Assembly: GCA_900319795.1 (NCBI GenBank)
Contig: ONPU01000016.1
Span: forward strand, 1-64,000
From: an uncultured Eubacteriales bacterium
GTDB lineage: Bacteria; Bacillota; Clostridia; Lachnospirales; Lachnospiraceae
DNA: 64,000 nt
Direction of reading: 5' to 3'
A model generated the notes under the pieces. That model searched no databases. It saw only the letters and a list, made by a program, of their open reading frames with translations, and was not told where the DNA came from. Position numbers and translations under genes: made by a program. Of the stretch, positions 12,765 through 61,719 are shown piece after piece. Positions within the stretch are counted from its first letter, which is position 1. Each line of letters starts with the position of its first letter.

Positions 12765-13586
12765 ATGGCAACATCATTTAAAGAGATTGTAAAAGGGCGC
12801 AGGAGTGTCCGTACATTTGACGGAAATGCAATCCGTCCGGAAGACAGGGAGAAACTGGAGGAATGCTTGAGAGAGGGCATTTCCAATCCGTTCGATATTC
12901 CGGTGGAGTTCGTTCTGCTGGACGCGGATCAGTATGGACTGTCCAGCCCGGTGATATCCGGTGAAAAGCTGTATGTTGCCGGGAAGGTCGCGAAGGGGCC
13001 CTATGCGGATGTGGCTTTTGGCTATTCTTTTGAGAAGCTGGTGCTTTTTGCCTGGTCGTTGGGGATCGGGACGACGTGGATTGGCGGGACCATGAAGCGG
13101 GAGCATTTTGAGAAAGCGGCCGGCCTTGCGGCCGGGGAAATGATGCCCTGCGTCAGCCCGCTGGGATATCCGGCAAAGAAATCCATCAAGGAAACGCTGA
13201 TGCGGAAGGGCGTGGGCGCCGACAACCGGATGCCGGCGGAGAAGCTGTTCTTCGATGGCGGATTTGACAAGCCGTTATCCGGGGCGGAGAAGCAGGAGAT
13301 CGCGGACCTGATCGAGGTGGTCCGGTGGGCTCCGTCCGCGGTGAATAAGCAGCCGTGGAGAGTTGTTCGCGGGGCGGACGGGGTGTATCATTTTTATGAA
13401 AAGAAGGATAAAGGATATGTCAGCGACGCGACCGGGGATCTGCAGAAGATCGACGTCGGCATTGCGATGTGTCATTTTGTGATGGAACTGGAGGAACAGG
13501 GGAAGAGCGCGGCGGTTGCTGTCAGCGATCCCGGGATCCGTGTTCCTGAAGGCACGGAATATATTGCGTCGGTGAGAGTCGGATAA
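12765..13586 (+). CDS. Nitroreductase-family protein
   Basis: The 273-residue protein starts with FKEIVKGRRSVRTFDGNAIR, the FMN-binding RRSVR signature of nitroreductases. It has the TM-nitroreductase (tandem) layout: SLGIGTTWIGGTMKREHF with LGYPAKKS, then a second part with VRWAPSAVNKQPWRVV. It is likely a FMN-dependent NAD(P)H oxidoreductase of unknown substrate. The TAA stop is fused directly to a family A repeat. It starts six bases after the surface-protein remnant. Confidence 0.85.
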   Translation: MATSFKEIVKGRRSVRTFDGNAIRPEDREKLEECLREGISNPFDIPVEFVLLDADQYGLSSPVISGEKLYVAGKVAKGPYADVAFGYSFEKLVLFAWSLGIGTTWIGGTMKREHFEKAAGLAAGEMMPCVSPLGYPAKKSIKETLMRKGVGADNRMPAEKLFFDGGFDKPLSGAEKQEIADLIEVVRWAPSAVNKQPWRVVRGADGVYHFYEKKDKGYVSDATGDLQKIDVGIAMCHFVMELEEQGKSAAVAVSDPGIRVPEGTEYIASVRVG

Positions 13587-13680
13587 GACAGTGGGGACAG
13601 TCCCCGGTGTCTGGTGCGAAAAGATGCCGAATTTTCAGCGTCTTTTGCGATAAGACACCAGGGACTGTCCCCACTGTCTG
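13587..13680. repeat. Family A palindromic repeat, long form (locus A1)
   Basis: Left arm GACAGTGGGGACAGTCCCC begins directly after the TAA of the nitroreductase gene. The centre is an imperfect hairpin AAGATGCCG...CAGCGTCTT followed by TTTT. The right arm AGACACCAGGGACTGTCCCC ends near 13679. The element probably serves as a terminator for the upstream gene. Confidence 0.85.
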
Positions 13681-13716
13681 GTTGATAAGACTTAAAAAGA
13701 AAGGCCAGGTGAAGGA

Positions 13717-14844
13717 ATGATCTACAGAGATTTTAGAGGAATGAAGCTTTCGGCGCTCGGATTTGGGGCAATGAGACTTCCGGTGATTGACGGGGATGAC
13801 AGCAGGATTGATGTGGAGGCTGCGCTTCGTATGGTAGACACCGCGATGGCGGCGGGGATCAACTATTATGATACGGCCTGGGGCTATCACGGTGAGAGCT
13901 CCGAAACAGTCATGGGAAAAGCGCTGAAAAAGTATCCACGGGAGCAGTTCTATGTTGCGACCAAGTTCCCCGGGTATGACCCGTCGAACTGGGGCAAGGT
14001 GGAGGAGATTTTCGAGAAGCAGCTTGAAAAGCTTGAAGTGGAATATTTTGATTTTTATCTTTTCCACAATGTCTGCGAGATGAACATCGACGCGTATCTC
14101 GATGATGAGAAATACGGCATTTACAGCTATTTGATGGAACAGAAGAAGAACGGGCGAATCCGTCACCTGGGCTTTTCCTGCCATGGAAACATGGACGTGC
14201 TGAAGCGTTTCCTCGATGCCTATGGCAAGGATATGGAATTTTGCCAGCTGCAACTCAATTATCTGGACTGGACTTTCCAGAGGGGCAGAGAAAAAGTGGC
14301 GCTTCTTGATGAGTGGAAGATTCCGGTATGGGTTATGGAACCGCTTCGCGGAGGAAAACTGGCTGGCCTTCAGCCGGAATATGAGGCTGAGCTGAAAGCG
14401 CTTCGTCCGGACGAGGAGATCCCGGCGTGGGCGTTCCGTTTCCTTCAGAGTATTCCGTCCGTTACGATGATTCTTTCCGGCATGTCCAATGAGGAGCAGT
14501 TGGAGAAAAATATCAAGACATTTGAAGCGGAAAAGAAACTGAACGATGCTGAGATGAAAACGCTTATGAGCATTGCTGACAGGATGCTGTCTGTGGGAAC
14601 GGTGCCTTGTACGTCGTGCCATTATTGCGTGAGCCATTGCCCGCAGGGGCTGGATATTCCGCATCTCATTTCTCTGTACAACGAACATGTTTACTCCGGC
14701 GGCGGATTCATCGCGCCGATGGCGCTTTCGGCCCTGCCGGAGGACAAAAAGCCGCAGGCATGTCTTCAGTGCCGCAGCTGTGAGCAGGTCTGTCCGCAGC
14801 AGATCAAAATCTCTGAGGTGCTTGCGGACTTCGCGGGGAGATAA
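13717..14844 (+). CDS. Aldo/keto reductase with C-terminal 2x[4Fe-4S] ferredoxin-like domain
   Basis: The 375-residue protein has the AKR barrel at residues 1-290: LSALGFGAMRLPV, INYYDTAWGYHGESSE with the catalytic Asp and Tyr, and QLQLNYLDWTFQRG. The C-terminal 80 residues hold two Cys clusters, CTSCHYCVSHCPQGLDIP and CLQCRSCEQVCPQQIKI, for two [4Fe-4S] clusters. This is the common anaerobe AKR-ferredoxin fusion, probably coupling carbonyl reduction to ferredoxin-type electron flow. Its TAA is fused to repeat A2. GAAAGGCCAGGTGAAGG precedes the ATG. Confidence 0.9.
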   Translation: MIYRDFRGMKLSALGFGAMRLPVIDGDDSRIDVEAALRMVDTAMAAGINYYDTAWGYHGESSETVMGKALKKYPREQFYVATKFPGYDPSNWGKVEEIFEKQLEKLEVEYFDFYLFHNVCEMNIDAYLDDEKYGIYSYLMEQKKNGRIRHLGFSCHGNMDVLKRFLDAYGKDMEFCQLQLNYLDWTFQRGREKVALLDEWKIPVWVMEPLRGGKLAGLQPEYEAELKALRPDEEIPAWAFRFLQSIPSVTMILSGMSNEEQLEKNIKTFEAEKKLNDAEMKTLMSIADRMLSVGTVPCTSCHYCVSHCPQGLDIPHLISLYNEHVYSGGGFIAPMALSALPEDKKPQACLQCRSCEQVCPQQIKISEVLADFAGR

Positions 14845-14938
14845 GACAGTGGGGACAGTCCCCGGTGTCTTATCGCAAAAGACGCCGAAAATTCGGCGTC
14901 TTTTCGAACCAGACACCAGGGACTGTCCCCACTGTCTG
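14845..14938. repeat. Family A palindromic repeat, long form (locus A2)
   Basis: Left arm GACAGTGGGGACAGTCCCC abuts the TAA of the AKR gene. The central stem AAAAGACGCCGAA/TTCGGCGTCTTTT is perfect, with flanking A and T runs, so it can terminate transcription in both directions. The right arm AGACACCAGGGACTGTCCCC follows. Confidence 0.88.
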
Positions 14939-14958
14939 GCTGATAAGGGTGAGATTTT

Positions 14959-15624: not shown

Positions 15625-15690
15625 GTGCGGGCTGGCGGTTGCTGGCTGGTGATCGCCGACTTGCGGGACTGGTCCCGGTTGGAGGGAATT

Positions 15691-16257
15691 ATGGAAATGA
15701 GGAAAACAGAGCGGGAGAAAATGACGAATGAGGAGCCATTTCTCACAAATGACCCGCAGCTCATGGAAGACAAGAAAAATGCGCGGATTCTCTGCGCGCG
15801 GCTCAATAATTCGCCGGAAGATGAGACGCTGAGGCGGTCCATTTTAAAAGAATTGTTGGGGCAGTGCGGGGAGAAAATCGCGGTCAAGCCGCCGTTCCAT
15901 TGCGATTACGGATATAATATCTTCGTGGGGGACGATTTTTTCATGAATTTCGACTGTGTGTTCCTGGACGCGGCGCCGATCCGGATCGGGGCACATTGTA
16001 TGATCGGGCCGAAGACCTGCATCTACGCGATCGGGCATCCGCTGGACGCGGAGTCGAGGAGAAAGAAGGTCGGCACGCCTAAAGCCGTCACGATCGGCGA
16101 CGATGTCTGGATCGGCGGAGGCGTCACGATTCTTCCGGGGGTTTCCATAGGGAATGGTACGGTTATTGCTGCCGGGGCCGTTGTGACCAAGTCCTTTCCG
16201 GATCATGTGGTGATCGGGGGGAATCCGGCGACAATTTTGAAACAAATTGAACAATAA
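15691..16257 (+). CDS. Maltose/galactoside O-acetyltransferase family enzyme
   Basis: The 188-residue hexapeptide-repeat protein has an N-terminal mac domain (FLTNDPQLMEDKKNARILCA), then PPFHCDYGYNIFVGDDFFMN, the His-containing IYAIGHPLDAESRR (catalytic His) and left-handed helix repeats IGDDVWIGGGVTILPGVSIG. It should transfer acetyl from acetyl-CoA to a sugar hydroxyl. ATG 15691 follows GGAGGGAATT; a GTG-extended frame from 15625 lacks support. The TAA is fused to repeat A3. Confidence 0.9.
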   Translation: MEMRKTEREKMTNEEPFLTNDPQLMEDKKNARILCARLNNSPEDETLRRSILKELLGQCGEKIAVKPPFHCDYGYNIFVGDDFFMNFDCVFLDAAPIRIGAHCMIGPKTCIYAIGHPLDAESRRKKVGTPKAVTIGDDVWIGGGVTILPGVSIGNGTVIAAGAVVTKSFPDHVVIGGNPATILKQIEQ

Positions 16258-16316
16258 GACAGTGGGGACAGTCCCTGGTGTCTGGCCAGACACCAGGGAC
16301 TGTCCCCACTGTCTGG
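16258..16316. repeat. Family A palindromic repeat, short form (locus A3)
   Basis: A nearly perfect palindrome: GACAGTGGGGACAGTCCCTG, GTGTCTGGCCAGACAC, then CAGGGACTGTCCCCACTGTC. It lies between two convergent genes: the left end abuts the TAA of the acetyltransferase and the right end abuts the TGA of the dehydrogenase on the other strand. It probably acts as a shared terminator-like structure. Confidence 0.88.
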
Positions 16317-17276
16317 TCAATAGCCCAGCCTTTTATCCACGAGGTGCTTAAGCGGCCTTCCTGCCGCGAAATTTCTCAAATCTTCGCAGAACATTTCCAC
16401 ATTTTTGTTTTTTGTATAGGTCAGCGTCAGATTTCCTGCGACATGCGGTGTGATCAGGAGATTTCTGGTTGTCCAAAGCGGGCTGTCCTTCGGGATCGGT
16501 TCCGTTCGGAAGACGTCAAGCGCCGCGCCGGCCAGGCGGCCGCTATTTAAAGCCGCCATCAGCGCGTCTTCGTCGATCGCCGACCCGCGGCCGACATTTA
16601 CAATATAGGAACCCTCCGGGAGCAGAGCCAGGCGGTCCTTCGAGAGCAGCCCGGCTGTTTCGGCTGTGCCCGGAAGGCTCATCGCCAGCAGGTCTGTTTC
16701 TTTAAGGACGGCATCCAGCTCCGTTACCGGCACGATTTTGTCATAGCAATTCTCTTCTGAGCGGCCGCTTCGGTTCACGCCAATAATTGCGGCAGGCTCA
16801 AACGCCCGGAGTCTTTTCGCGAAATGAGTCCCGATATCTCCCGTCCCAAGCACCGTCACTCTGCTGTCTTTCAGCGATTTCTGGGCTCTTGGGGCAAGCC
16901 ACTCGCGGTTCATTACGCCCGCCTGGAATTCGGGAATCCGCCGCATCATCATTATCGAAACCGCTATCATATGTTCGGAAATCGAGACGCCGTAGGAGCC
17001 GGCGGAGTTTGTCAGCAGGCAGTCTTTATTTGCAAAACTGTCCCCCCTCAGAAAGTCTACTCCGGCCGAGGGGACGCAGAGCCATTTCAGATTTTTGCTG
17101 GTCGCAGCGATGTTTAGGGCAGGACCGTAGATCACATCGGCGTCGGCGGCCGCGGGCATCGCTTCCTGTTCTGTCGGGAAGAACAGCAGTTCCGCGCCCA
17201 CTTCCGAGGCGGTCTGCTCGATGGTTTCCTTGTTCTCTTTGCTCAGCATGGTGCTGATTACAACTACTTTCATCAT
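16317..17276 (-). CDS. D-2-hydroxyacid dehydrogenase family protein
   Basis: The 319-residue protein has the family's NAD-binding motif VTVLGTGDIGTHFAKRL, then LLAMSLPGTAETAGLLSK, VNVGRGSAIDEDALMAAL with the catalytic Arg region, and the Asp/Glu-His relay seen in AALDVFRTEPIP and ITPHVAGN. It is related to phosphoglycerate dehydrogenase-like and glyoxylate/hydroxypyruvate reductases. Substrate not evident. AAAGGAT precedes MM; either Met could be the start. Its TGA is at the edge of repeat A3. Confidence 0.88.
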   Translation of the reverse strand: MMKVVVISTMLSKENKETIEQTASEVGAELLFFPTEQEAMPAAADADVIYGPALNIAATSKNLKWLCVPSAGVDFLRGDSFANKDCLLTNSAGSYGVSISEHMIAVSIMMMRRIPEFQAGVMNREWLAPRAQKSLKDSRVTVLGTGDIGTHFAKRLRAFEPAAIIGVNRSGRSEENCYDKIVPVTELDAVLKETDLLAMSLPGTAETAGLLSKDRLALLPEGSYIVNVGRGSAIDEDALMAALNSGRLAGAALDVFRTEPIPKDSPLWTTRNLLITPHVAGNLTLTYTKNKNVEMFCEDLRNFAAGRPLKHLVDKRLGY

Positions 17277-17366
17277 GCGTGGATCATCCTTTTTGTTAAA
17301 ATTGTTCTTATTGTAGCATAATCTAATGATCTTACTAGTATTTCGTAAGTGGATGTATATATAACA

Positions 17367-17426
17367 AGACAGTGGGGACAGTCCCCGGTGTCTGGCCAGA
17401 CACCAGGGACTGTCCCCACTGTCTTG
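17367..17426. repeat. Family A palindromic repeat, short form (locus A4)
   Basis: AGACAGTGGGGACAGTCCCC, GGTGTCTGGCCAGACACC, AGGGACTGTCCCCACTGTCT. It lies in the upstream region of both the divergent dehydrogenase gene and the 17505 gene. Unlike most copies it does not touch a stop codon. Confidence 0.85.
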
Positions 17427-17504: not shown

Positions 17505-17861
17505 ATGACTGATCCCAGAGAAGATTTCCCTGATTTTTTGAAGGAAGAAACGGAGAGGTATATCCGCTCGCTGTTTCATCACTATGGCGTACATTTTGAC
17601 GGGATTGTAAATGGCAACCGCCACCTGCGCGAAGTCCAGCGCGACCGCGCGACGACGCTTCCGCAGAAGCTTCCGAGCGCTTACCGGATCTCGCTCCACA
17701 TCGACGACGAGGAAATCGTCTGCACAATGGGCAGGCAATACGGATATAACGTCTATCAGCTGAATGCGCAGGACGACGAGTGGGAGGAAAAAAACCTTGA
17801 AAGAGCAGAGGAAATCCGGCGCAATCAATTTGCGGGAAATGGATCCTCCGATACACAGTAG
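17505..17861 (+). CDS. Hypothetical protein, 118 aa, overlapping the nuclease-like gene
   Basis: ATG 17505 is well placed after GAGGGAGGTGGGC. The product (MTDPREDFPDFLKEETERYI...) has segments FHHYGVHFDGIVNGNRHL and AYRISLHIDDEEIVCTMGRQ, no membrane part and no domain I know. The last 65 bases overlap the start of the next gene in another frame, which suggests translational coupling and a functional link with the PD-(D/E)XK-like protein. Confidence 0.6.
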   Translation: MTDPREDFPDFLKEETERYIRSLFHHYGVHFDGIVNGNRHLREVQRDRATTLPQKLPSAYRISLHIDDEEIVCTMGRQYGYNVYQLNAQDDEWEEKNLERAEEIRRNQFAGNGSSDTQ

Positions 17862-19062
17862 AAAAAAGGAAATCCGGGATTTTGACCGGCTGAAAATGCT
17901 GTGGGAGAAATATCCTCAGTATCATGAACGGGCGACATTTGCCATTATGGAGGACCTCCTTTTAGAGCATGAGTCCTGGAACGCGGACTTTGAGGAGCTG
18001 CGGGAAGAATACATGGGGAACGGGTATGACCGGTTCCTGATCCAGCTTTCCTGGGCGGACCTTGCATACCGTTACGCCACGATGGAACGGATCCGGGAGG
18101 CGGGCGCGCTTGCTGAAAATCCGTATGTAGAGGCGTTCATGGATCAGTTTCGTGACCTCGATACGGATCATCAGGCATGTTTTCTTTTTCCGGAGACATA
18201 TATTCCGCAGTTTTTTGTGATCTGTGAGGTTTGCAAAAGGGCGGAGATTTTCCGGCCGGTTCGAAGCCTGTTTCCGGATGAGGAGAAACAGCATTTTCTG
18301 GCGGTATTTGACAAGCGGAACATGGAGGATGTTCTGTTGATGTTTCATTTGCTATATACAAATCCTTCGGAAGACCTGTACGGCGGGTATTCGCTGTATG
18401 ATTATTCGCTGCCGTGGTATCAGAACCATCTGTGGGAGGACGGGGTGCCTTTTCGGTCGCCCTATCTTCCGGACCGGCTTGCGAAATATCAGGGGAATCT
18501 GCCGTGGTATCACAATCCTTCGAAGACGGTTTATGTGCGGAGAAATATTTGCCATATGCTGGAGAGCGGGTATTTTGCTTCGGAGCTGGAGATTTTCAGG
18601 AATCTTACGGAGGTGATCATGCCGCATTTTCAATGGTGGTACGCGGATATCGCTCTTTATGAGGAGAAGGACGGCTACCGGACGGACTGGCGGCTGGAGA
18701 GGACGAAGATTCGGACGAGGCTGACGGCGGACGGGGTGATCCGGCCCAAGTGGAAGCACGAGGTGACGCTTTTTCAGCTGGTGCGGGCGAAGTATCCGGA
18801 TACGTTATACCAATACCGGCCGGAATGGCTCGGGAGGCAGAGCCTGGATCTGTATATTCCGTCGCTCAGGACGGGCGTTGAGTACCAGGGGGTGCAGCAT
18901 TATCTGCCGGTCGGGTTTTTCGGGGGCGAAGAGGCCCTTGCGCAGCGCAGGCTCCTGGATCAGCAGAAGAAGCAGCTTTGCGAGGAGAACGGCGTGCGGC
19001 TGGTCGAGTGGCCGTACGACGTTGAGCCGACAGCGGGGAATCTTCGGGAGATGATCGGATAA
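17797..19062 (+). CDS. Large protein with C-terminal PD-(D/E)XK nuclease-like domain, TTG start
   Basis: TTG 17797 is preferred because GGAGG (17783-17787) is nine bases upstream; an ATG at 17764 and one at 17841 lack such a site. The 421-residue product has an uncharacterised Tyr/Trp-rich N-terminal part (LPWYQNHLWEDG, LPWYHNPSKTVYVRRN). The C-terminus, SLDLYIPSLRTGVEYQGVQ, then RRLLDQQKKQLCEENGV, fits the D...E-x-Q pattern of restriction-endonuclease-like folds. DNA or RNA cleavage is inferred. The TAA is fused to repeat cluster A5. Confidence 0.65.
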   Translation: MKEQRKSGAINLREMDPPIHSRKKEIRDFDRLKMLWEKYPQYHERATFAIMEDLLLEHESWNADFEELREEYMGNGYDRFLIQLSWADLAYRYATMERIREAGALAENPYVEAFMDQFRDLDTDHQACFLFPETYIPQFFVICEVCKRAEIFRPVRSLFPDEEKQHFLAVFDKRNMEDVLLMFHLLYTNPSEDLYGGYSLYDYSLPWYQNHLWEDGVPFRSPYLPDRLAKYQGNLPWYHNPSKTVYVRRNICHMLESGYFASELEIFRNLTEVIMPHFQWWYADIALYEEKDGYRTDWRLERTKIRTRLTADGVIRPKWKHEVTLFQLVRAKYPDTLYQYRPEWLGRQSLDLYIPSLRTGVEYQGVQHYLPVGFFGGEEALAQRRLLDQQKKQLCEENGVRLVEWPYDVEPTAGNLREMIG

Positions 19063-19152
19063 GACAGTGGGGACAGTCCCTGGTGTCTGGCCAGACAGTG
19101 GGGACAGTCCCTGGTGTCTTATAAGACAAGGGGGACAGTTCCTGGTGTCTTA
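19063..19152. repeat. Family A repeat cluster: three half-elements in direct orientation (locus A5)
   Basis: Three copies of the half-unit GACAGTGGGGACAGTCCCTG + GTGTCT run head to tail, starting at 19063, 19093 and 19124; the third is degenerate (GACAAGGGGGACAGTTCCTG). This differs from the usual inverted pairs. The first copy is fused to the TAA of the upstream gene. Confidence 0.85.
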
Positions 19153-19170: not shown

Positions 19171-19776
19171 ATGTGTTGCAGATATTGGATGGAGGAGTCG
19201 GCCGAACTTCGTCCCATCGTCGAAGAAATGAATCGCTCGCCGCTCGTGAAGCGGTGGGAGAATAAGACAGAGATCGTGACGTCCGGTGAGATCCGGCCGA
19301 CCAATGTTGTGCCGGTGATTGCCCCGGACAAAAGCGGAAATCGCGCCGTTTATCCGATGAAGTGGGGATTCCGGGCGAAGTCTCTGCTTTTGAATGCCCG
19401 GACCGAGACGGCGGCGGTAAAGCCCATGTTCAAAGAGGCCTGGGCCAGACACCGGTGCGTCGTACCGGCGTCCTGGTATTTTGAGTGGGAGCATCTGCGC
19501 GGTAATGACGGCAAGGTCCGCAGCGGGGATAAATACAGGATCCGGCCAAAGGATTCCGCGATGACCTGGCTGTGCGGGCTGTACAGGATTGAAGAAGGTC
19601 TGCCGGTTTTTGTAGTGCTGACAAGGGAGCCGGGTGAGGAGATTCGGCGGCTCCACGACCGGATGCCGCTGATCATGCCGGAGCAGCTGGTAAATGAATG
19701 GATCCGGCCGGACATCAATCCTGAGAGATTGCTGACGGAGGCACTTACCGAAATGGAATTTGAGAAGGCGCTGTAA
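19171..19776 (+). CDS. yedK: SOS-response-associated peptidase family (YedK/HMCES) abasic-site shield protein
   Basis: The 201-residue protein starts MCCRYWMEE with the catalytic Cys2 that links covalently to abasic sites in single-stranded DNA. Other conserved residues: Asn in LLLNARTETAA, Glu in VPASWYFEWEH and His in RRLHDRMPLIM. In the family residue 3 is usually Gly; here it is Cys. Function is protection of AP sites during replication and self-reversal. GAAGAGGTG precedes the ATG. Its TAA is fused to repeat A6. Confidence 0.93.
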   Translation: MCCRYWMEESAELRPIVEEMNRSPLVKRWENKTEIVTSGEIRPTNVVPVIAPDKSGNRAVYPMKWGFRAKSLLLNARTETAAVKPMFKEAWARHRCVVPASWYFEWEHLRGNDGKVRSGDKYRIRPKDSAMTWLCGLYRIEEGLPVFVVLTREPGEEIRRLHDRMPLIMPEQLVNEWIRPDINPERLLTEALTEMEFEKAL

Positions 19777-19832
19777 GACAGTAGGGACAGTCCCCACTGT
19801 CTGGCCAGACATCAGGGACTGTCCCCGGTGTC
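19777..19832. repeat. Family A palindromic repeat, short form (locus A6)
   Basis: GACAGTAGGGACAGTCCCC, ACTGTCTGGCCAGACATC, AGGGACTGTCCCCGGTGTC between convergent yedK and the LysR gene. Both genes' TAA stop codons are fused to the element ends. The arms differ slightly from the consensus. Confidence 0.85.
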
Positions 19833-20708
19833 TTATTGGAAGGTCTCCTTCAGCTGCCGCAGAAAGCGTTCCGCGATCGGTGTGAATGCCTGGTAGCGGT
19901 TCCATGCGATGTAGAGCGTGGCCTCGCACGCCGGCGATAAAGGTCTGAAGGCAAGGCCGCTGTTTTCGGAAGTGTCGATCAGGTTGCGGAAGGTGAGAAG
20001 ATATCCGAGGCCTTCCCGCGTGAAGATGGAACCGTTGTAGGAGAGGCGGAATGAACCTTCCAGTTTCAGCTTTGAGAAGGAGCTGCCGGCCCAGGATTTG
20101 ATGTCGCCGTTCCAGGCCTGCTCGGAGCAGAATAAAGGAAGGCCGACCAGGTCGTCCGCCCGGATCGCATCTTTTTCCGCGAGCGGATCATTTTCCGGAA
20201 TGACCAGCCCCCAGACATCCTTTTCCGGAAAAGCCAGGTACTCGTACTTCCGGGCGTCCGGCAGTTCGGCGAGGACCAGAAAATCCAGAAGACCCTTATC
20301 CAGCTTGTCCGCGATCTGCTCCGTGTCGCCGCTGGTGATGTGGTAATACAGGTTCGGATAGCGGGTCTTGAAGTCCCTGATCACGCGCGCGAGGTACCGG
20401 ATCTGGTACGACTCCGCGAGCCCCAGGTAAAGCTCCCCTCCGCTGATATCGTCCAGGGAAATGAATTCCCGCTCAATCTTATCCGCCATACTGACGAGAT
20501 CCTCCGCCCGGTTCCTCAGCAGCACGCCCTCTTCCGTCAGCCGGATGCTGAAGCTGTGGCGGGTAAATAATTTCTTCCCGAGCTCGTCCTCCAATGATTT
20601 CAGCGCCTTCGAAAGAGTCGGCTGCGTGACATGCAGGGTTTCGGCGGCACGGGTCATATTTTCCTCCCTTGCAACAGCCAGAAAATAGCGTAAAGTCCGG
20701 ATCTCCAT
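19833..20708 (-). CDS. LysR-family transcriptional regulator
   Basis: The 291-residue protein begins MEIRTLRYFLAVAREENMTR with the winged HTH AETLHVTQPTLSKALKSLED, typical of LysR, followed by a substrate-binding domain (GELYLGLAESYQIRYLARVI). It is divergent from the 20877/21120 pair, its probable target, with a 168-base shared upstream region that is AT-rich. The ligand is unknown. Its TAA (CAA TAA GACACC) is fused to repeat A6. Confidence 0.88.
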   Translation of the reverse strand: MEIRTLRYFLAVAREENMTRAAETLHVTQPTLSKALKSLEDELGKKLFTRHSFSIRLTEEGVLLRNRAEDLVSMADKIEREFISLDDISGGELYLGLAESYQIRYLARVIRDFKTRYPNLYYHITSGDTEQIADKLDKGLLDFLVLAELPDARKYEYLAFPEKDVWGLVIPENDPLAEKDAIRADDLVGLPLFCSEQAWNGDIKSWAGSSFSKLKLEGSFRLSYNGSIFTREGLGYLLTFRNLIDTSENSGLAFRPLSPACEATLYIAWNRYQAFTPIAERFLRQLKETFQ

Positions 20709-21119: not shown

Positions 21120-22121
21120 ATGATGAAAATGGAACAGCTGAATCTGACGGAGAAATGGGACAAGACATTTCCGAAGAGCGATAAGGTCGATCACTCAAAG
21201 GTGACATTTGTGAATCGTTACGGCATTACACTTGCGGCGGATCTGTATGTGCCGAAGGGCGCGGAGGGGAAGCTGCCGGCGATTGCGGTGTGCGGGCCAT
21301 TTGGCGCCGTTAAGGAACAGTGTTCCGGTCTTTACGCGCAGACCATGGCGGAAAGAGGTTTCCTCACCATCGCGTTTGACCCGTCCTTCACCGGTGAAAG
21401 CGGCGGAAATGTCCGCTACATGGCTTCCCCGGATATCAATACGGAAGATTTTATGGCGGCGGTTGACTTCCTGTCCCTTTGCGACAAGGTCGATCCGGAG
21501 CGCATCGGGATCATCGGCATCTGCGGCTGGGGCGGCATGGCTCTGAACACGGCGGCGCTTGATACCCGCATCAAGGCAACGGTAGCTTCCACGATGTACG
21601 ACATGACCCGCGTCAACGCCAAAGGGTACTTCGACAGCGAGGACAGTGAGGAAGCGCGCTATCAGAAGAGAGCGGCCATGTGCGCGCAGAGGCTTGCGGA
21701 CCTTAAGGCGGGCGAATACACGCTCGGCGGCGGGGTAGTCGATCCGCTTCCGGAGGACGCGCCTTATTTTGTAAAAGATTACTATGATTACTACAAGACG
21801 GATCGCGGCTATCACGTCAGGTCGCTCAACTCCAACGGCGGGTGGAACGTCATTGGCTGCGAGTCTTTCATGAACCAGCCGATCCTGAAGTACTCGAACG
21901 AGATCCGTTCCGCGGTCCTTGTGATGCACGGGGAAAAGGCGCACTCCTGCTACTTCGGCAAGGACGCTTACGCGGATATGGTGAGGGACAGCAAGTATAC
22001 GGACAACAAGGAGCTGCTGATCATCCCCGGGGCTTCTCATACGGACCTGTATGACGGCGGGGAGAACAATGCGATTCCGTTTGATAAGCTTCAGAGCTTC
22101 TTTGAGGAGTATCTGAGGTAA
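21120..22121 (+). CDS. Alpha/beta hydrolase with Cys in the nucleophile elbow
   Basis: The 333-residue protein has the layout of YcjY/dienelactone-hydrolase-like enzymes: ITLAADLYVPKGAEGKLPAI, FLTIAFDPSFTGESGG, VDPERIGIIGICGWGGMALN (elbow GxCxG, where Ser is usual), VLVMHGEKAHSCYFG and His in IIPGASHTDLYD. A Cys nucleophile is known for dienelactone hydrolases. Divergent from LysR, thus likely its regulated target. Start ATG 21120 or 21123 after CGAGGACG. Confidence 0.8.
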   Translation: MMKMEQLNLTEKWDKTFPKSDKVDHSKVTFVNRYGITLAADLYVPKGAEGKLPAIAVCGPFGAVKEQCSGLYAQTMAERGFLTIAFDPSFTGESGGNVRYMASPDINTEDFMAAVDFLSLCDKVDPERIGIIGICGWGGMALNTAALDTRIKATVASTMYDMTRVNAKGYFDSEDSEEARYQKRAAMCAQRLADLKAGEYTLGGGVVDPLPEDAPYFVKDYYDYYKTDRGYHVRSLNSNGGWNVIGCESFMNQPILKYSNEIRSAVLVMHGEKAHSCYFGKDAYADMVRDSKYTDNKELLIIPGASHTDLYDGGENNAIPFDKLQSFFEEYLR

Positions 22122-22125
22122 AGAT

Positions 22126-22187
22126 AAGACAGTGGGGACAGTCCCTGGTGTCTGGCCAGACACCAGGGACTGTCCCCACTGTCTGGT
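22126..22187. repeat. Family A palindromic repeat, short form (locus A7)
   Basis: TAAGACAGTGGGGACAGTCC, CTGGTGTCTGGCCAGACACCAG, then GGACTGTCCCCACTGTCTGG. It starts five bases after the hydrolase stop. Its right end runs into a promoter-like TATAAT (22195-22200). Confidence 0.87.
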
Positions 22188-23094: not shown

Positions 23095-23901
23095 TCAGTC
23101 ATTTAGCAGAAAATCCAGGATACGCTGCTTGTAATCCGGCGCCATGTCGTAGGCGGCGTGCCCGTATCCATTATACATATGGAAAATGAAACCCGGGCGC
23201 CCCTCCAGCTTCTCCGCGATCTGGCGGGAGGCTTCGGCTCCGAGGACGCGGTCGTCTTCGGAGCCCATAAGGAGCACCGGGCAGGAGATTTTCGTAAGGT
23301 CGTCATGGACGTCGAAATGCTGCGTGCCATTTGCCAGAATCATAAAACGGCGCAGGTCTTCTTCGGTTACGGTTTTTGCTGTTTCGGTAAGCATTTCCCG
23401 GAACTGCTCATATGCTGCCTCCGGGAACAGGGCCTTGCCGAAGGCGTGGTACAGCTCGGTCGCCTTTCCTTCTTTGGCGAGGGCGGTCCATTGATCAAGG
23501 GAATGGAACTGCTCGTCCGTAATGCGGGCCGAGGTGGAGCCGAGCACCAGCTTTTTGACAAGCTGCGGGTGGTCGATCGCGATCTTCATCGCGATCATGC
23601 CGCCCTGGGACACGCCGAACAGGTTCACCCGGTCAAGACCGATGGCCTCGATCGCCTCGGCCGTGTCGCGCGCCATATCATACACCGAATATTCCGGCGG
23701 CAGATCCGCCCGCCGGTCAAAGAGACAGATCTTGTAGTGCCCGGCCAGCAGCCGGTACGCGCCCTTCACGCTCTGGGCCGACCCAAGCACACTCTGCACG
23801 CTGATACCGGGCAGGATCACAAGGGGCTCCGGGCCCTTGCCGAACTCAAGGTACTGCATAGTGAAATTGTTGGTTTTTACGGTTTTGATGGCAGTGTTCA
23901 T
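23095..23901 (-). CDS. Alpha/beta hydrolase
   Basis: The 268-residue protein shows LVILPGISVQSVLGSAQS (oxyanion region), KICLFDRRADLPPEYS, the nucleophile elbow VNLFGVSQGGMIAMKIAI (Ser in GVSQGG), acid in LLMGSEDDRVLG and His in NGYGHAAYDM. It is a soluble esterase-like enzyme. The ATG overlaps the TGA of the upstream isomerase gene (ATGA), and AAGGAGCC lies inside that gene's repeat-derived tail, so translation is coupled. It is the third gene of the mannoside operon; substrate could be an acyl sugar, which is inferred only from context. Confidence 0.8.
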   Translation of the reverse strand: MNTAIKTVKTNNFTMQYLEFGKGPEPLVILPGISVQSVLGSAQSVKGAYRLLAGHYKICLFDRRADLPPEYSVYDMARDTAEAIEAIGLDRVNLFGVSQGGMIAMKIAIDHPQLVKKLVLGSTSARITDEQFHSLDQWTALAKEGKATELYHAFGKALFPEAAYEQFREMLTETAKTVTEEDLRRFMILANGTQHFDVHDDLTKISCPVLLMGSEDDRVLGAEASRQIAEKLEGRPGFIFHMYNGYGHAAYDMAPDYKQRILDFLLND

Positions 23902-25193
23902 GTGAAGGCTCCTTTTAGATCAGACAGCGGGGACAGTCCCTGGTGTCTGGCCAGACACCAGGGACTGTCCCCACTGTCTGATCCGCGGACGGCCCTGGCG
24001 ATCGAGACGTCTACTTTGCTGTAAGGAATCAGCATTGCCTGGAAGGCGTGGTAGAGGTCCGACTTGCCCGGCCAGACGGTCTCTTTTAACTGGTTGTGTT
24101 CGTCGAGCTGGTGGAACCAGGAGCCGCAGCTCTTGTCCAGCACGACCTCGTCGAGGTACTCAAGGTACGCAGCGAAGTCGTCCGCATACTTCTCATTGCC
24201 TGTCACCCGGTAGAGGACCGCGGAAGTGTTAATTGCCTCGGCCAGCGTCCAGTGCATCCGGTCGTGGACGACCGGCTTGCCTTCCCAGTCGGTGGTGTAG
24301 ACGATGCCTCGTTCGCCGTCGGCGCACCAGGCGTCCTTTACGGCCCTGTCGTAGAGCGCGCAGGCGGCCTCGATGTATTCGGAAGCATCCACCGGACTGC
24401 TCTTGGCCCACTGAGTGATGAGGCGCGCCCATTCGATGCCGTGTCCGGGCGTCGCGCCGTAAGGCTTGAAGGGGTCGTCCGGCGTATCTTTATTTTTCTC
24501 GAGATCGGGCGTCCAGTCTTTTGTGAAATGTTCCGGGATCCGCCACGAATTGCCCTTTGCCCATTCAATTACATGAGAAATGATCCGCCCGGCCCGGACG
24601 CGGTACTTTTCATCCTCAAGAGCGTCCGCAGCTGCGAGAAATGCCTCGACCGTATGCATATTTGCATTGACGCCGCGGTAGTCGTCGAGCACCGTGAATT
24701 CCGTATTCCAGGTGTCTGAGGACAGCCCTTCCTCCTCATTCCAGAAATACTTGTCATAGATCTGAAGAGCTTCATCCAGAAGTTCCTTCGCTCCGTCGAT
24801 CCCGGCGAGATACGCGCTTGTCGATGCCAGGATTACAAAGGCATGGGCATAGCACTGTTTGTCCGGCACTACCTCGTTGTCCTTTGTAAGGCCGGCGTAC
24901 CAGCCGCCGTGTTCCCTGTCCTTCAGTTCGCCGCGAATGCCCTTGATGGCCGCCTCCGCGAGCTCCCGGCTGCCCGGATCGCCCTTCATGGCTCCCATGC
25001 TGTACACATGGGCCATACGGCAGGTGATCCAGGTTTCACGGTTCCGTTCCTTCCACGGCGTCCCGTCGTCGCCCAGATAGTAGCTCCCGCCGCCCGGCGA
25101 CGGAAACTGCCTGCCGAAATCGAGAAGCGCCTGCGCGTTCGCTTTGAGAAATGCCTTGTTTTCCTCAGTGTCGATCATGTATTTACGATCCAT
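23898..25193 (-). CDS. AGE-family aldose-ketose isomerase, YihS-like (mannose or sulfoquinovose isomerase)
   Basis: The (alpha/alpha)6-barrel enzyme closely matches the YihS branch of AGE proteins as I remember it: ETWITCRMAHVYSMGAMKGD, REHGGWYAGL, GVNANMHTVEAFLAAADAL, GATPGHGIEWARL, GIVYTTDWEGKPVVHDRMHW and SCGSWFHQLDEHNQ. These include the catalytic His residues. Next to a beta-mannosidase, mannose to fructose isomerisation is the best guess; sulfoquinovose isomerase is the alternative. The family core ends near residue 403. Residues 404-431 are encoded by repeat A8 and its flank. GGAAAGGAT precedes the ATG. Confidence 0.85.
   Translation of the reverse strand: MDRKYMIDTEENKAFLKANAQALLDFGRQFPSPGGGSYYLGDDGTPWKERNRETWITCRMAHVYSMGAMKGDPGSRELAEAAIKGIRGELKDREHGGWYAGLTKDNEVVPDKQCYAHAFVILASTSAYLAGIDGAKELLDEALQIYDKYFWNEEEGLSSDTWNTEFTVLDDYRGVNANMHTVEAFLAAADALEDEKYRVRAGRIISHVIEWAKGNSWRIPEHFTKDWTPDLEKNKDTPDDPFKPYGATPGHGIEWARLITQWAKSSPVDASEYIEAACALYDRAVKDAWCADGERGIVYTTDWEGKPVVHDRMHWTLAEAINTSAVLYRVTGNEKYADDFAAYLEYLDEVVLDKSCGSWFHQLDEHNQLKETVWPGKSDLYHAFQAMLIPYSKVDVSIARAVRGSDSGDSPWCLARHQGLSPLSDLKGAFT
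23922..23981. repeat. Family A repeat read as coding sequence of the isomerase C-terminus (locus A8)
   Basis: AGACAGCGGGGACAGTCCCT, GGTGTCTGGCCAGACACC, AGGGACTGTCCCCACTGTCT. On the minus strand it is translated as the last part of the upstream isomerase (SDSGDSPWCLARHQGLSPLS). It lies between the functional end of that gene and the start of the next. Confidence 0.88.
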
Positions 25194-41818: not shown

Positions 41819-41847
41819 ATTATACCACGAAACCAGACACCGGGGAC
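41819..41847 (-). promoter_or_regulatory. Extended -10 promoter of the ABC importer, fused to repeat A9
   Basis: On the minus strand TGGTATAAT (TATAAT at plus 41819-41824) lies about 42 bases upstream of the binding-protein start. The -35 position falls in the repeat arm (GTCCCC, 17-base spacer). The flank closely matches the promoter at 22172-22200. Confidence 0.6.
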
Positions 41848-41896
41848 AGTCCCCACTGTCTTATTTTAAGACAGTGGGGACTGTCCCCGGTGTCTT
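41833..41896. repeat. Family A palindromic repeat (locus A9), partly coding
   Basis: AGACACCGGGGACAGTCCCC, ACTGTCTTATTTTAAGACAGT, GGGGACTGTCCCCGGTGTCT. The centre is TTATTTTAA instead of TGGCCA. The right half encodes the last residues of the Tet(M)-like protein (HRGQSPLS) and its stop. Confidence 0.87.
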
Positions 41897-47958: not shown

Positions 47959-48057
47959 TAAGACAGTGGGGACAGTCCCTGGTGTCTTATCGAAAAAGAC
48001 GCCGGAAATCCGGCGTCTTTTCGCGTAAGACAACGGGGACTGTCCCCGCTGTCTTAT
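47959..48057. repeat. Family A palindromic repeat, long form (locus A10)
   Basis: TAAGACAGTGGGGACAGTCC arm, centre AAAAAGACGCCGG/CCGGCGTCTTTT hairpin, then AAGACAACGGGGACTGTCCC arm. The right end supplies TAAGAC at the TAA stop of the minus-strand DUF362 gene. Confidence 0.88.
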
Positions 48058-51828: not shown

Positions 51829-51926
51829 TAAGACAGTGGGGACAGTCCCCGTTGTCTTACGCGAAAAAACGCCGGATTTCCGGCGTTTTTTTCGATAAGA
51901 CACCAGGGACTGTCCCCACTGTCTTA
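51829..51926. repeat. Family A palindromic repeat, long form (locus A12)
   Basis: AAGACAGTGGGGACAGTCCC arm, centre AAAAAACGCCGG-ATT-CCGGCGTTTTTT (a strong two-way terminator; stem base pairs changed on both sides relative to A2), and ATAAGACACCAGGGACTGTC arm. Lies between convergent genes and provides the TAA of the AraC gene. Confidence 0.9.
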
Positions 51927-52769
51927 TGTCATGCGGTTCTCAGCGCGCCAGGCGCGCGGTGAGGAGTTGTAGTAGTTTTTGAAAGCGCGTGAGAAGTGGA
52001 GGGCGTTTTCGTAGCCGACGGCTTCCGCGACGGAGGAGACGGGGAGGTCGGTGAGCTTCAGGAGCTCGGCGGCCTTGATCATGCGGTAGCTGAGCAGGAA
52101 ATGCTGCGGCGACTTCCCGACCGTATCGCGGAAAATCCGGCCGAAATAGCTGCGGTTCAGACCGGAATTTTTGGCGATGTCTTCCACGGAGATGTTGTTT
52201 CTGTAATTTTTCTCTATATAGGACAGCGCCTCCTTGATATAGAAATCCCGGAGATTGCTGCCGGTTTCGAACTTCTTTCGCGTGGCGGAGCGGAGAAGGT
52301 AGTCGAAGAAGAGGTAGAGATGCCCGATGAGGTGCAGGGACGGCTCGGTGCCGTTTTCCGCAATGTATTTCATTTCTTCCGCCATTTTCTGGCTGAGTTC
52401 GCGGGAATGCGCGCGGTAAGCGGGAGAATTCCTGGAGAAACCGGCCATTTCCAGCTGCTGCTTGACCCGAAGGCCGTCGAATTCAATCCAGATATACTCC
52501 CAAGGCAGCCGCTGATCCGCGATATACGTGGTCACCTGCCCGGGAATCAGCAGAAAACCCTCGCCGCTTTTTACGGAAAGCTCCAGGTCATTTCCTTCGG
52601 CATCCGTCGAATACAGCTTTCCCGTTCCCGAAACAACATAGTGAAATACAAAATGATTCCGCGCCGCGGGCCCGAATGAGTGTCCCGGCGTGCATTGTTC
52701 ATGCCCGTACTGGTACATCACAAGGTCGATGAAGCTCGTCATCGGAAATATCCCAAAACTGTAAAGCAT
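51924..52769 (-). CDS. AraC-family regulator (paralogue 1)
   Basis: The 281-residue protein has an N-terminal cupin sensor (QYGHEQCTPGHSFGPAARNH; LLIPGQVTTYIADQRLPWEY) and C-terminal double HTH (VEDIAKNSGLNRSYFGRIFR; AEAVGYENALHFSRAFKNYY). The start at 52769 follows AGAGGGGGA; a longer frame has no site. It closely resembles the divergent paralogue at 52990 (shared PGHSFGP). Near an alpha-galactoside operon, so likely a sugar-use activator. TAA is fused to repeat A12. Confidence 0.87.
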   Translation of the reverse strand: MLYSFGIFPMTSFIDLVMYQYGHEQCTPGHSFGPAARNHFVFHYVVSGTGKLYSTDAEGNDLELSVKSGEGFLLIPGQVTTYIADQRLPWEYIWIEFDGLRVKQQLEMAGFSRNSPAYRAHSRELSQKMAEEMKYIAENGTEPSLHLIGHLYLFFDYLLRSATRKKFETGSNLRDFYIKEALSYIEKNYRNNISVEDIAKNSGLNRSYFGRIFRDTVGKSPQHFLLSYRMIKAAELLKLTDLPVSSVAEAVGYENALHFSRAFKNYYNSSPRAWRAENRMT

Positions 52770-52875
52770 ATCAGTCCCCCTCTTTTTTACTGAAAATGAT
52801 GTCCTCTCCCGGGCCTTCCTAAATAGAATATATAGCACAATGCGACTTCATTTGAATGGAAAAATGTCAAATACC

Positions 52876-56470: not shown

Positions 56471-56485
56471 CGGGAGGAACGGATT

Positions 56486-57325: not shown

Positions 57326-57374
57326 GAGATCAGTCAGCGATTATCGCATTCATATTTACCTTCCTTTTATGACG

Positions 57375-57413: not shown

Positions 57414-57423
57414 TCTTATGTAA

Positions 57424-58134: not shown

Positions 58135-58216
58135 CCCCCGTGGTACGTTTTGCACCAGAGGTGCCTGACCCCCGTGGTACGTTTTGCACCAGAGGTGCCT
58201 GGCACCGGTGGTGCAC
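58118..58216. repeat. Family B tandem repeat array, three units of 34 bp (locus B4)
   Basis: Units start at 58118, 58152 and 58186: GCACCACGGGTGCCTGACCC, GCACCAGAGGTGCCTGACCC and GCACCAGAGGTGCCTGGCAC, with CCGTGGTACGTTTT completing the first two. The TGA in the first unit (58132-58134) is the stop codon of the upstream gene. The third unit ends 13 bases before the next start codon. Confidence 0.9.
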
Positions 58217-58229
58217 TCGGAGGATTACG

Positions 58230-58979: not shown

Positions 58980-59042
58980 TAAGACAGTGGGGACTGTCCC
59001 CACTGTCTTATAAGACACCGGGGACAGTCCCCACTGTCTTAT
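58980..59042. repeat. Family A repeat pair (locus A13)
   Basis: TAAGACAGTGGGGACTGTCC, CCACTGTCTTATAAGACACC, GGGGACAGTCCCCACTGTCT. Two full palindromes in a row. Its right end touches a TATAAT at 59045. Confidence 0.87.
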
Positions 59043-59044
59043 GA

Positions 59045-59050
59045 TATAAT
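59045..59050 (+). promoter_or_regulatory. -10 element of the alpha-galactosidase gene next to repeat A13
   Basis: A perfect TATAAT three bases after the repeat. GGGACA (59021-59026), in the repeat arm, is an 18-base-spaced -35-like hexamer (four of six matches to TTGACA). It would let the GH36 gene be expressed apart from the operon. Confidence 0.5.
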
Positions 59051-59080
59051 AGTTGATATTTTTTCAGGAGGATCTCTGCC

Positions 59081-61288
59081 ATGCCTATTTGCATAGACGA
59101 GAAGCAAAAACTGTTTACACTTCACACCCTTCATACCACCTACCAGATGGCGGCTGACAAGTACAATCTGCTTCGCCATCTCTATTACGGCCCGAAGGCT
59201 GAGGGCTGCGCATTCTATCTGCACGTGCCCGCTGACCGCGGCTACGCCATGCAGATTCCCGACGCGAAGAATGACCGGCTCTACTCGCCGGACGTCATTC
59301 CGCAGGAGTATCCGAGCCAGGGGAGTGCCGACATGAGGAGCCCCGCGTTTGCCATTATCAACGCCGACGGCAGCTGCGTTTCGGACCTCCGGTACAAGAG
59401 CTGTCGCGTTCTGGATGGGAAATATACCCTCCCGCGCATGCCGCACGTCCACATTTCCGATGAGGAAATGAACAATCTTCCTGAAAATGAGCGCCCCGAG
59501 ACGCTCGCGATCACCCTTGAGGATCCGATTTCGCACGTCGAAGTGGAGCTTCTTTACGGAGTTTTCCCGGCGGAGGACGTCATTACCCGCGCGGCGGTGG
59601 TGAAAAATGTGGGAAATGAAACATTTACCATAAGAAAAGCACTCAGCGCGAACCTCGATTTTTCGTTCGGCCGCTTTGACGTGATCACCTTCTACGGCCG
59701 CCACGCGATGGAGAGGAACCTCCACAGGCTGGAGGTCGGGCACGGCATTTTCGAGATCGGCAGCCGCCGCGGCGCGTCATCGCACCAGTACAACCCGCTG
59801 ATGATTCTCGCGGACGAGACCGCGGACGAGATTTCGGGCAGCTGCTACGCGATGGAACTTGTCTGGAGCGGTGGCTTTACCGGCTGCCTCGAGAAGGATC
59901 AGTTCGACCAGACCAGATGGCAGATGGGGCATATGGACGGCCATTTCAGCTATCCGCTGAAGGCGGGCGAGACATTTACGGCGCCGGAAGTGATCCTTAC
60001 ATACAGTGAACATGGTTTCGAGCAGCTTTCGCTCAACCTGCACAATACGATCCGGAAACATGTCCTCACCGGCCCCTGGAAGGACCGCGTAAGGCCGCTG
60101 CTTCTGAACAGCTGGGAGGCGTGCTATTTCGATTTCGACGGGGACACGATCCGCTCGATCGCGCGCGAGGCGAAGGACCTCGGTTTTGAAATGATCGTCG
60201 TGGACGACGGCTGGTTCGGCAAGCGAGATGACGACACCACGAGCCTTGGCGACTGGTCCGTCAACGAGGAAAAGCTCGGCTGCACGCTGCCGCAGCTGAT
60301 CCGCGACATCCGCGCGATGGATATGAAATTCGGCATCTGGATCGAGCCGGAAATGATTTCCGAAGACAGCGAACTCTTCAAGGCGCATCCGGACTACGCG
60401 CTCAGCGTGCCGGGCCGCGCGCCGGTCATCGGGAGGAACCAGCTCGTGCTGGACTTTTCGAGGAAAGAGGTCGTGGACGCCATTTTCGATCAGTTTTGTG
60501 AAATATTTGCCGAAGAAGTTCCGGACTATATCAAATGGGACTTCAACAGAAGCCTTAGTGAATCATTTTCCAAAAATGCGGACGACCAGGGGCGTGTGTT
60601 CTACGATTTCATGCTCGGCACCTACGACCTGCTTTCGCGTTTCCGCGAAAAATGGCCGGACATCCTCATCGAGGGCTGCGCCGGCGGGGGCGGGCGTTTC
60701 GACGCCGGCATGCTGTACTACACGCCGCAGATCTGGTGCAGCGACAACACGGACGCCGTCGACAGGGTCCGCATCCAGTACGGCACTTCGTTCGGCTACC
60801 CGTCCTATTCCATGGGCGCGCACGTCTCCGTTTCGCCAAATGAGCAGAACGGGCGCGTGACGCCGCTCGCGACCCGCGCGGCGGTGGCGATGGCGGGGAC
60901 GTTCGGCTACGAGCTGGATCCGCGGAAAATGACCGACGAAGAGAAGGCGATGGTGCGCGAGCAGACAGACGCATACCGCAAATACGCGCCGCTGACGCTG
61001 TCCGGCGACTACCTGCGCCTGACGGACCCGTTCCGCGACCATGTCGGCGCATGGGAAATCTGCGCCGCCGACGGCAGCGAGGCGCTGGTCACAGCGGTCA
61101 CGCTCGAGATTCACGGCAACGCGCCGCAGAACTACATCCGCCTGCGCCGGCTTACGCCGGGCGCCGTCTACCGCGACGAAGAAAGCGGCCGGGAATACTC
61201 GGCTGACATGCTGATGTACGCCGGGCTGCCCGTGCCGCGGGAGATGTTCGAATACGCTTCACATGTGTGGCATTTCGTGAGAGTGTAA
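59081..61288 (+). CDS. Alpha-galactosidase, glycoside hydrolase family 36
   Basis: The 735-residue enzyme has the GH36 layout: N-terminal beta-sandwich, then a TIM barrel with MIVVDDGWFGKRDDDTTSLG, FGIWIEPEMISEDSELF, the nucleophile Asp in YIKWDFNRSLSE (about residue 485), EGCAGGGGRFDAGML and the acid/base Asp in WCSDNTDAVDRVRIQYGTS. No signal peptide, so it cleaves imported raffinose-type sugars inside the cell. AGGAGG lies eight or nine bases before the ATG. Its TAA is fused to repeat A14. It closes the alpha-galactoside operon. Confidence 0.95.
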   Translation: MPICIDEKQKLFTLHTLHTTYQMAADKYNLLRHLYYGPKAEGCAFYLHVPADRGYAMQIPDAKNDRLYSPDVIPQEYPSQGSADMRSPAFAIINADGSCVSDLRYKSCRVLDGKYTLPRMPHVHISDEEMNNLPENERPETLAITLEDPISHVEVELLYGVFPAEDVITRAAVVKNVGNETFTIRKALSANLDFSFGRFDVITFYGRHAMERNLHRLEVGHGIFEIGSRRGASSHQYNPLMILADETADEISGSCYAMELVWSGGFTGCLEKDQFDQTRWQMGHMDGHFSYPLKAGETFTAPEVILTYSEHGFEQLSLNLHNTIRKHVLTGPWKDRVRPLLLNSWEACYFDFDGDTIRSIAREAKDLGFEMIVVDDGWFGKRDDDTTSLGDWSVNEEKLGCTLPQLIRDIRAMDMKFGIWIEPEMISEDSELFKAHPDYALSVPGRAPVIGRNQLVLDFSRKEVVDAIFDQFCEIFAEEVPDYIKWDFNRSLSESFSKNADDQGRVFYDFMLGTYDLLSRFREKWPDILIEGCAGGGGRFDAGMLYYTPQIWCSDNTDAVDRVRIQYGTSFGYPSYSMGAHVSVSPNEQNGRVTPLATRAAVAMAGTFGYELDPRKMTDEEKAMVREQTDAYRKYAPLTLSGDYLRLTDPFRDHVGAWEICAADGSEALVTAVTLEIHGNAPQNYIRLRRLTPGAVYRDEESGREYSADMLMYAGLPVPREMFEYASHVWHFVRV

Positions 61289-61383
61289 GACAGTGGGGAC
61301 AGTCCCCGGTGTCTTACGCGAAAAGACGCCGAATTTTCGGCGTCTTTTTCGACAAGACACCAGGGACTGTCCCCACTGTCTTA
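61289..61383. repeat. Family A palindromic repeat, long form (locus A14)
   Basis: GACAGTGGGGACAGTCCCC arm after the GH36 TAA, centre AAAAGACGCCGAA/TTCGGCGTCTTTTT hairpin, ACAAGACACCAGGGACTGTC arm. The right end is fused to the TAA of the convergent XRE gene. Confidence 0.9.
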
Positions 61384-61719
61384 TTGTATCGAGAGTGCCT
61401 CGATATATCCGAGAAGCCGGTTCTTCTGAGCCGGCTTTAATTGACGGAATTCCTGTACGATTTCGTACTCGTCAGTGCCTTTTTCGACGACCAGGCGCTC
61501 CGGGAGCTCGTATTTTCCGCTTTCAGTGCCGCTGAGCAGTTCGTAGGGCGTGACGCCGAGTACGTCGCAGATGATCAGGATCTTGTCCGAAGAGGGGTTC
61601 AGCTTCTTGCTCTTCCAGTCGCTGATGGTGCTTTGCGGAATGCCGGTCCGTGAGGCGAACGTCTTCTGCGTCATGCCCTGCTCCGAAATGAGTTTAAAAA
61701 TTTTTTCACTGATCAGCAT
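61381..61719 (-). CDS. XRE-family HTH regulator, 112 aa
   Basis: The HTH is ISEQGMTQKTFASRTGIPQ with STISDWKSKKLNPSSDKILI, followed by CDVLGVTPYELLSG and a C-terminal tail with LKPAQKNRLLGYIEAL. The second ATG (61719) has better spacing to GGAGG than the first (61722). It is a stand-alone regulator; target unknown. Its TAA (CAA TAA GAC) is fused to repeat A14. Confidence 0.85.
   Translation of the reverse strand: MLISEKIFKLISEQGMTQKTFASRTGIPQSTISDWKSKKLNPSSDKILIICDVLGVTPYELLSGTESGKYELPERLVVEKGTDEYEIVQEFRQLKPAQKNRLLGYIEALSIQ

Follow-up and report, generated by a model that had tools for sequence, protein, structure and literature searches.

REP-like palindromes that probably carry their own TAA stop codon at gene ends in a Lachnospiraceae genome

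Repetitive extragenic palindromic (REP) sequences of the GTAG type are short palindromes, often in inverted pairs, many of which are accompanied by RAYT transposases; they adjoin gene 3′ ends (<20 bp) in the genomes diagrammed by Di Nocera et al. (2013; PMC3733652), and their termini often supply TAG stop codons. (Statements on PMC3733652, PMC6006769 and PMC8266576 refer to excerpts of these papers throughout.) A second described group, the TIRYT/TIRtron systems, combines a Y1 HuH transposase bearing an HTH-like C-terminus with flanking inverted repeats of the form GGGGWSAS (PMC3733652, PMC6006769). Some of the TIR (terminal inverted repeat) families reach moderate abundance and occur as dimers or in clusters (PMC3733652), and TIRYTs have been suggested to match TnpAY1 subclass 2.1 (PMC6006769). 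Here, we describe a palindromic repeat in a 64,000-nt stretch of DNA, hereafter the window, from an uncultured Eubacteriales bacterium of the Lachnospiraceae (GCA_900319795.1, contig ONPU01000016.1). These REP-like palindromes probably carry their own TAA stop codon, in-frame copies near gene ends being the ones that survive, and would most likely belong to a TIRYT-like transposase.

The window spans positions 1-64000 of C17, a contig of 74,891 bases in a 2.0-Mb assembly that is 82% complete (G000), and holds 14 clusters of a 31-bp palindromic unit, NNA-GACANNNGGGACWGTCCCNNNTGTC-TNN, with a predicted hairpin fold containing a stem mismatch. Unit termini are mostly TAA...TTA, less frequently CCA, CAA or TCA. 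Genome-wide, we counted 117 exact GGGACWGTCCC cores, 114 of them within the DNA fetched and 113 of those 114 in the 60 clusters analysed. Their spread is uneven, with 57 of the 114 located on C17 and C18, which together amount to 109 kb. The unit search does not detect degenerate copies such as 19122-19152. One cluster on contig C14, within a reading frame that stays open over 388 codons, is a probable chance match in coding sequence that is still included in the counts. Including this one, four of the 60 clusters were flagged within a called gene; the repeat is thus a mostly extragenic palindrome of 20-40 bp with many dispersed copies, as expected of REPs and bacterial interspersed mosaic elements (BIMEs). 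Inverted pairs, the hallmark of BIMEs and REPINs, are present as well: 43 of the 60 clusters consist of two units, neighbouring units are inverted at 38 and direct at 15 of 53 junctions, and the pair at 16255 folds as a single 27-bp stem. Junction spacing is exactly 31 bp in 35 cases, 34-38 bp in five and 66-68 bp in 13, with a perfect stem of at least 7 bp in 10 of these 13 long spacers. Within the window, TAAGACAGTGGGG gave 39 matches when up to two mismatches were allowed (0.73 expected from shuffles) and TAAGACACC gave 10 (0.20 expected); together with the frame statistics described below, these expectations exclude chance as the origin of the motif and its stop fusions. The exact 21-mer TAAGACAGTGGGGACAGTCCC was present in one of 42 genomes of the genus, namely G000, and was not found in its 41 congeners.

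The 60 clusters have 120 outer ends, of which 116 were examined after dropping four contig-end half copies; gene ends were taken from our own gene-calling script rather than a published gene finder. Outer-end hexamers were TAAGAC (78), CCAGAC (20), CAAGAC (14), TCAGAC (3) and CATGTC (1). Since the unit ends in TAA...TTA, any gene directed towards a TAA end finds a potential stop codon there. Among the 62 ends that face a gene 3′ end, the element's TAA is the stop in 25; a native stop abuts the element in eight and lies 1-10 nt upstream in 16, seven are otherwise read into, and six are 15-638 nt away. Genes read into 28 TAA ends, and at 25 of these they meet the TAA in frame (p 1.2e-9 relative to an expectation of 1/3, each end counting as independent); the four read-ins at CCA- or TCA-ended copies have no preferred frame. 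Three further copies lie stop-free in open reading frames (ORFs), at 50216 (97 bp), at 23920 (TCA-ended, in a C-terminal tail) and on contig C5, there within an extended open frame. In-frame stops at gene ends combined with stop-free copies inside ORFs are the pattern that selection on an element-borne stop would leave, and we infer that selection caused the frame bias. A copy interrupting the last codons in the right frame would have its own TAA become the stop, leaving a protein of nearly native length; near gene ends, copies in other frames would be rare survivors, and copies within ORFs would persist where they can be read without a stop.

In the same line, the TAA itself appears to be part of the unit. 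Of the element ends near gene stops, 39 of 57 carry it; the corresponding figures are 33 of 47 where the end faces a gene's start and 59 of 106 for internal unit ends, whereas the remnant of a target would be expected at insertion edges only. A first-pass annotation of the window had reported TAAGAC followed by AGTGGGG or ACC at 14 loci, with the TAA fused to gene stops. All ten stops it named (13586, 14844, 16257, 19062, 19776 and 61288 on the plus strand; 19833, 48054, 51924 and 61381 on the minus strand) are exact ends of called genes, as are the stops adjoining TAAGAC at 51828 and 58979. The motif occurs 27 times, counting both strands, but in 12 of the 14 clusters only, those at 17365 and 23920 having CAAGAC/TCAGAC ends. 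Of the two interpretations then offered, a unit whose own terminal TAA replaced native gene ends is borne out by the start-facing and internal TAA ends, the predominant 31-bp spacing and the reading frame, and the targeting of TAA stop codons, as originally put, is not.

Protein length is nearly preserved in the fused genes that could be compared, which are nine of the 25 fused ends, from parts of C17 and C18, each with 1-7 orthologs that extend to the C-terminus. Median differences from orthologs were 0, 2, 3, 0.5, 1, 0, 0, 7 and 0.5 residues for the nine TAA-fused genes, and 3, 0, 0, 0, 0, -2, 0, -7 and 4 residues for nine control genes.

Such near-native C-termini would also be expected if TAA were a target sequence kept on the left flank, comparable to the cleavage tetranucleotide of IS200/IS605 elements, with native TAA stops serving as tolerated targets. 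Stop usage fits this idea, too: TAA accounts for 39 of the 57 stops located no more than 40 nt from an element (16 TGA, 2 TAG), compared with 126 of 295 for the other stops in the same DNA (153 TGA, 16 TAG). However, TAA is equally frequent at start-facing ends and common inside clusters, 35 of the 53 junctions are fixed at 31 bp, and CCA, CAA and TCA can take its place at the ends. In four of six relatives of at least 69% identity, the ortholog of the gene at 13717-14844 has a TGA stop, which is weak evidence because TGA is the commoner stop overall. Targeting of TAA stops is further opposed by the four clusters situated between divergent genes and the three in ORFs that are read without a stop. 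IS200/IS605 elements insert 3′ of a fixed tetranucleotide that stays on the left flank; here, TAA is not restricted to insertion edges, and the sole common flank base found is an A preceding the element (98 of 116 ends; 50 of 57 near stops and 41 of 47 facing starts). We consider a target remnant very improbable; the evidence favours an element-borne stop combined with frame selection over targeting of TAA stops. As an aside, a rule by which omitting the base after the element restores the empty site yields in-frame TGA TAA at 13584 and 14842, but was discarded as the other fused ends disobey it.

Several observations weigh against an element-borne stop with frame selection as the full account, some of them positional. 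Copies lie mostly at A^T junctions near gene ends. Of the 47 clusters outside genes with a called gene on either side, 13 are convergent, 30 co-directional and four divergent, placing 43 on a gene 3′ side; 29 of the 30 co-directional clusters are closer to the stop than to the next start, and 28 lie no more than 10 nt from the stop upstream (including two where the gene reads 32-34 nt in), compared with 285 of 1642 A^T sites (17.4%) when gaps free of elements are considered. Tolerance alone is not an obvious explanation for this proximity, for which selection, function or targeting could each be the cause. Moreover, 6 of 23 fused ends have a stop triplet at +0/+1 in their far flank, versus 2 of 57 (p 0.006; one site whose flank is another unit was dropped), an enrichment that is the best hint that elements could have inserted beside native stops. 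The C-terminal differences of fused and control genes are not clearly distinct either, and the mobility of the element is itself something we infer. Taken together with the 25 of 28 in-frame ends, the positional data could reflect insertion that prefers the neighbourhood of stops, for example A^T next to TGA or TAA or single-stranded DNA at gene ends, in which case fusion would be mechanistic and not selected. Speaking against this are the four clusters between divergent genes, the three in ORFs and the six 3′-facing ends located 15-638 nt away; in addition, the preceding A is equally common at stop-near and start-facing ends, and proximity is weaker in the congener G023, where a stop is located no more than 10 nt from 12 of the 25 co-directional clusters (one being a gene that reads 39 nt in). 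We regard stop-proximal targeting as unlikely to be the explanation for the fusions; a looser preference for sites close to any stop may exist, in view of the 28 of 30 co-directional clusters. Hairpins resembling REPs were found behind the same genes in relatives at 3 of 40 orthologs of element-adjacent genes versus 2 of 72 of control genes, indicating no clear hot spot. Copies might, finally, be retained near stops for a function as terminator or 3′-end mRNA stabilizer, with stop fusion as a by-product. The 98-nt form at 14842 has a predicted RNA fold of -77.1 kcal/mol (z -15.2) with an inner hairpin followed by UUUU, which, along with the stems in 10 of 13 long spacers and the 43 of 47 clusters on a gene 3′ side, would suit such a role. 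The long spacer is present at just 13 of 53 junctions, however, so that most clusters lack it, and such a function requires neither zero distance nor the TAA frame; judged from sequence, we hold it to be quite improbable.

The genome encodes a single Y1 (RAYT-type) transposase gene, at 9315-10058 on contig C18. Elements flank it on both sides: one ends 165 nt before the assumed start, and the other begins at the stop, its TAA again being the stop codon. The protein matches Pfam Y1_Tnp with 50 bits (cut-off 23), and HVH and YILQNP in its translation agree with the HuH and Y---NP motifs as defined in PMC6006769. At the C-terminus, HTH_50, HTH_38 and HTH_Tnp_ISL3 matches were obtained, all under their Pfam cut-offs, and the NCBIfam model REP_Tyr_transpos (NF047646) scored 52.5 bits, below its cut-off of 80. 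Both flanking elements contain GGGGACAG, which fits GGGG[AT][CG]A[CG] (GGGGWSAS). Transposase and core thus resemble the TIRYT/GGGGWSAS group, and the palindrome population would most likely belong to this TIRYT-like (RAYT subclass 2.1-like) Y1 HuH transposase, which presumably mobilizes it.

In comparison with the described systems, the repeat shares with GTAG REPs (PMC3733652) the short palindromes, inverted pairs and 3′-end location, but has TAA at both ends (TGA in G023), transposase relatives that are mostly of Clostridia type, and no unpaired GTAG at the palindrome foot at any of the 116 outer ends. Similarly, it has in common with the REP/BIME elements of Escherichia coli and their TnpAREP a hairpin with a stem mismatch, inverted pairs and a single transposase gene, and differs in palindrome sequence and in having no GTAG guide at the foot (PMC8266576). 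TIRYTs are matched by the Y1 HuH transposase and GGGGACAG, and the sub-threshold HTH matches may correspond to their HTH-like C-terminus; for TnpAY1 subclass 2.1, the excerpts of PMC6006769 report that no REP-like sequences were found near the genes, whereas the gene described here is flanked by a palindrome population of 117 exact cores. The first-pass annotation had set the repeat apart from ordinary REPs at varying distances from stops, a description that fits poorly with PMC3733652. The principle of a stop-supplying REP is already published, given the TAG stops of GTAG REPs and their location near 3′ ends (PMC3733652). What is new, as far as the literature was searched, is that such palindromes can supply TAA or TGA, along with the statistics on reading frame and the presence of REP-like palindromes in large number next to a TIRYT-like transposase gene in genomes of Clostridia type; no stop-supplying palindromes in Clostridia turned up in that search of titles and abstract openings, most subscription papers being outside its reach.

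Complementarily, G023 carries a different palindrome family with 131 core sites and encodes a transposase 45% identical to the C18 transposase, with such palindromes beside its gene. In a sample of 44 clusters covering 58 of these 131 cores, 9 of 50 gene-3′ ends use the palindrome's terminal TGA as their stop, as opposed to two out-of-frame read-ins (p 0.0014). In the G023 ortholog of the gene at 17764-19062, the TGA is fused to G023's own palindrome. In G017 (C137) and G003 (C123), the counterpart of 17764-19062 has its start next to the 3′ end of the counterpart of 19833-20708; the window has a different order, with elements in between. Because gene order differs in this way, some two-sided fusions may stem from rearrangement between copies, and elements may mark rearrangement borders. 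At five of the 13 convergent clusters, both stops are element-supplied or directly abutting (gaps 0 or -3).

The best 80 of 191 transposase relatives come mostly from assemblies labelled Lachnospiraceae, Oscillospiraceae, Clostridiales or Clostridia, many of them from ruminants. Of 47 RAYT loci among these 80 that were evaluated by script, a core palindrome lies no further than 70 nt from the stop in 15, and in two the stop is within a palindrome arm; three more of the latter kind (L054, L080 and L086) were recognized by eye. With two of 47 by script and three by eye, own-stop fusion is not general in this RAYT sample. In L053, L054, L064, L080 and L086, all from other Clostridia-type genomes, the TGA that ends the RAYT gene belongs to a palindrome with a GGGAC core (by visual inspection only for three of the five).

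The window illustrates the range of arrangements. On its left side, a 98-bp element of two inverted 31-bp units round a spacer (13584-13681) provides the stop of a nitroreductase-like gene (12765-13586), and a 98-bp element with inner hairpin (14842-14939) that of an aldo/keto reductase gene (13717-14844). The 62-bp inverted pair at 16255-16316 ends an acetyltransferase gene (15691-16257) with its TAA, and the minus-strand gene 16317-17276 terminates in TGA at its opposite edge. A 62-bp pair with CAA/TTG ends (17365-17426) has divergent genes on either side, and three direct 31-bp units, the third degenerate (19060-19152), begin with the TAA that stops the gene at 17764-19062. Between convergent genes, the 62-bp pair at 19774-19835 supplies the stops of both an SRAP gene (19171-19776, plus strand) and a LysR gene (19833-20708, minus strand), and the 62-bp pair at 22125-22186 lies 3 nt past the native TAA of the gene at 21120-22121. 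The 62-bp pair at 23920-23981 has TCA/TGA ends and no TAA, and is read through as a C-terminal extension of the minus-strand gene 23898-25193. This gene overlaps the next one (23095-23901) by 4 nt, an overlap retained despite the element with its TCA/TGA ends; loss of the TAA may have preserved translational coupling.

Further right, a minus-strand gene enters the two-unit element at 41833-41897 by 32 nt from its right-hand side, out of the TAA frame. A 98-bp element with inner hairpin (47959-48056) supplies the stop of a DUF362 gene (48054-49148, minus strand), and a 97-bp element (50216-50312) lies within a GntR/aminotransferase-type gene (49163-50572, minus strand), contributing residues 87-119 in a stop-free frame between its GntR and aminotransferase Pfam matches. 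At 51829-51926, a 98-bp element with inner hairpin is abutted on the left by a native TAA (51828), and its right-hand TAA is the stop of an AraC-type gene (51924-52838, minus strand). The native TGA of a plus-strand gene abuts the 62-bp element at 58980-59041 (position 58979), and a 98-bp element with inner hairpin (61286-61383) provides both stops of a convergent pair, a GH36/melibiase gene (59081-61288, plus strand) and the gene at 61381-61722 (minus strand). Elsewhere in the assembly, five contig ends (C3:59-83, C4:34746-34770, C5:112772-112796, C10:74464-74488 and C18:34281-34305) share one sequence of 77-84 bases joined to a half element, GGGACWGTCCCTTCCTATCATGTCAAGCCC, which is probably part of a longer multi-copy repeat at which the assembly broke.

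A more far-reaching proposal, which we put forward as speculative, is that a Clostridia-type, TIRYT-like clade has repeatedly evolved portable gene ends, with a stop at each edge (TAA here, TGA in G023), often a terminator-like hairpin, and insertion guided to the final few nucleotides of a gene, which leaves the host with its protein. An own stop codon would let a mobile palindrome occupy the very end of a gene at little cost. The frame signature it leaves (25 of 28) is countable and separates element-borne stops from coincidence, and a large REP-like population is here tied to a transposase resembling a group for which the excerpts of PMC6006769 report no REP-like neighbours. With a second species using a different stop codon, the idea becomes testable across the clade.

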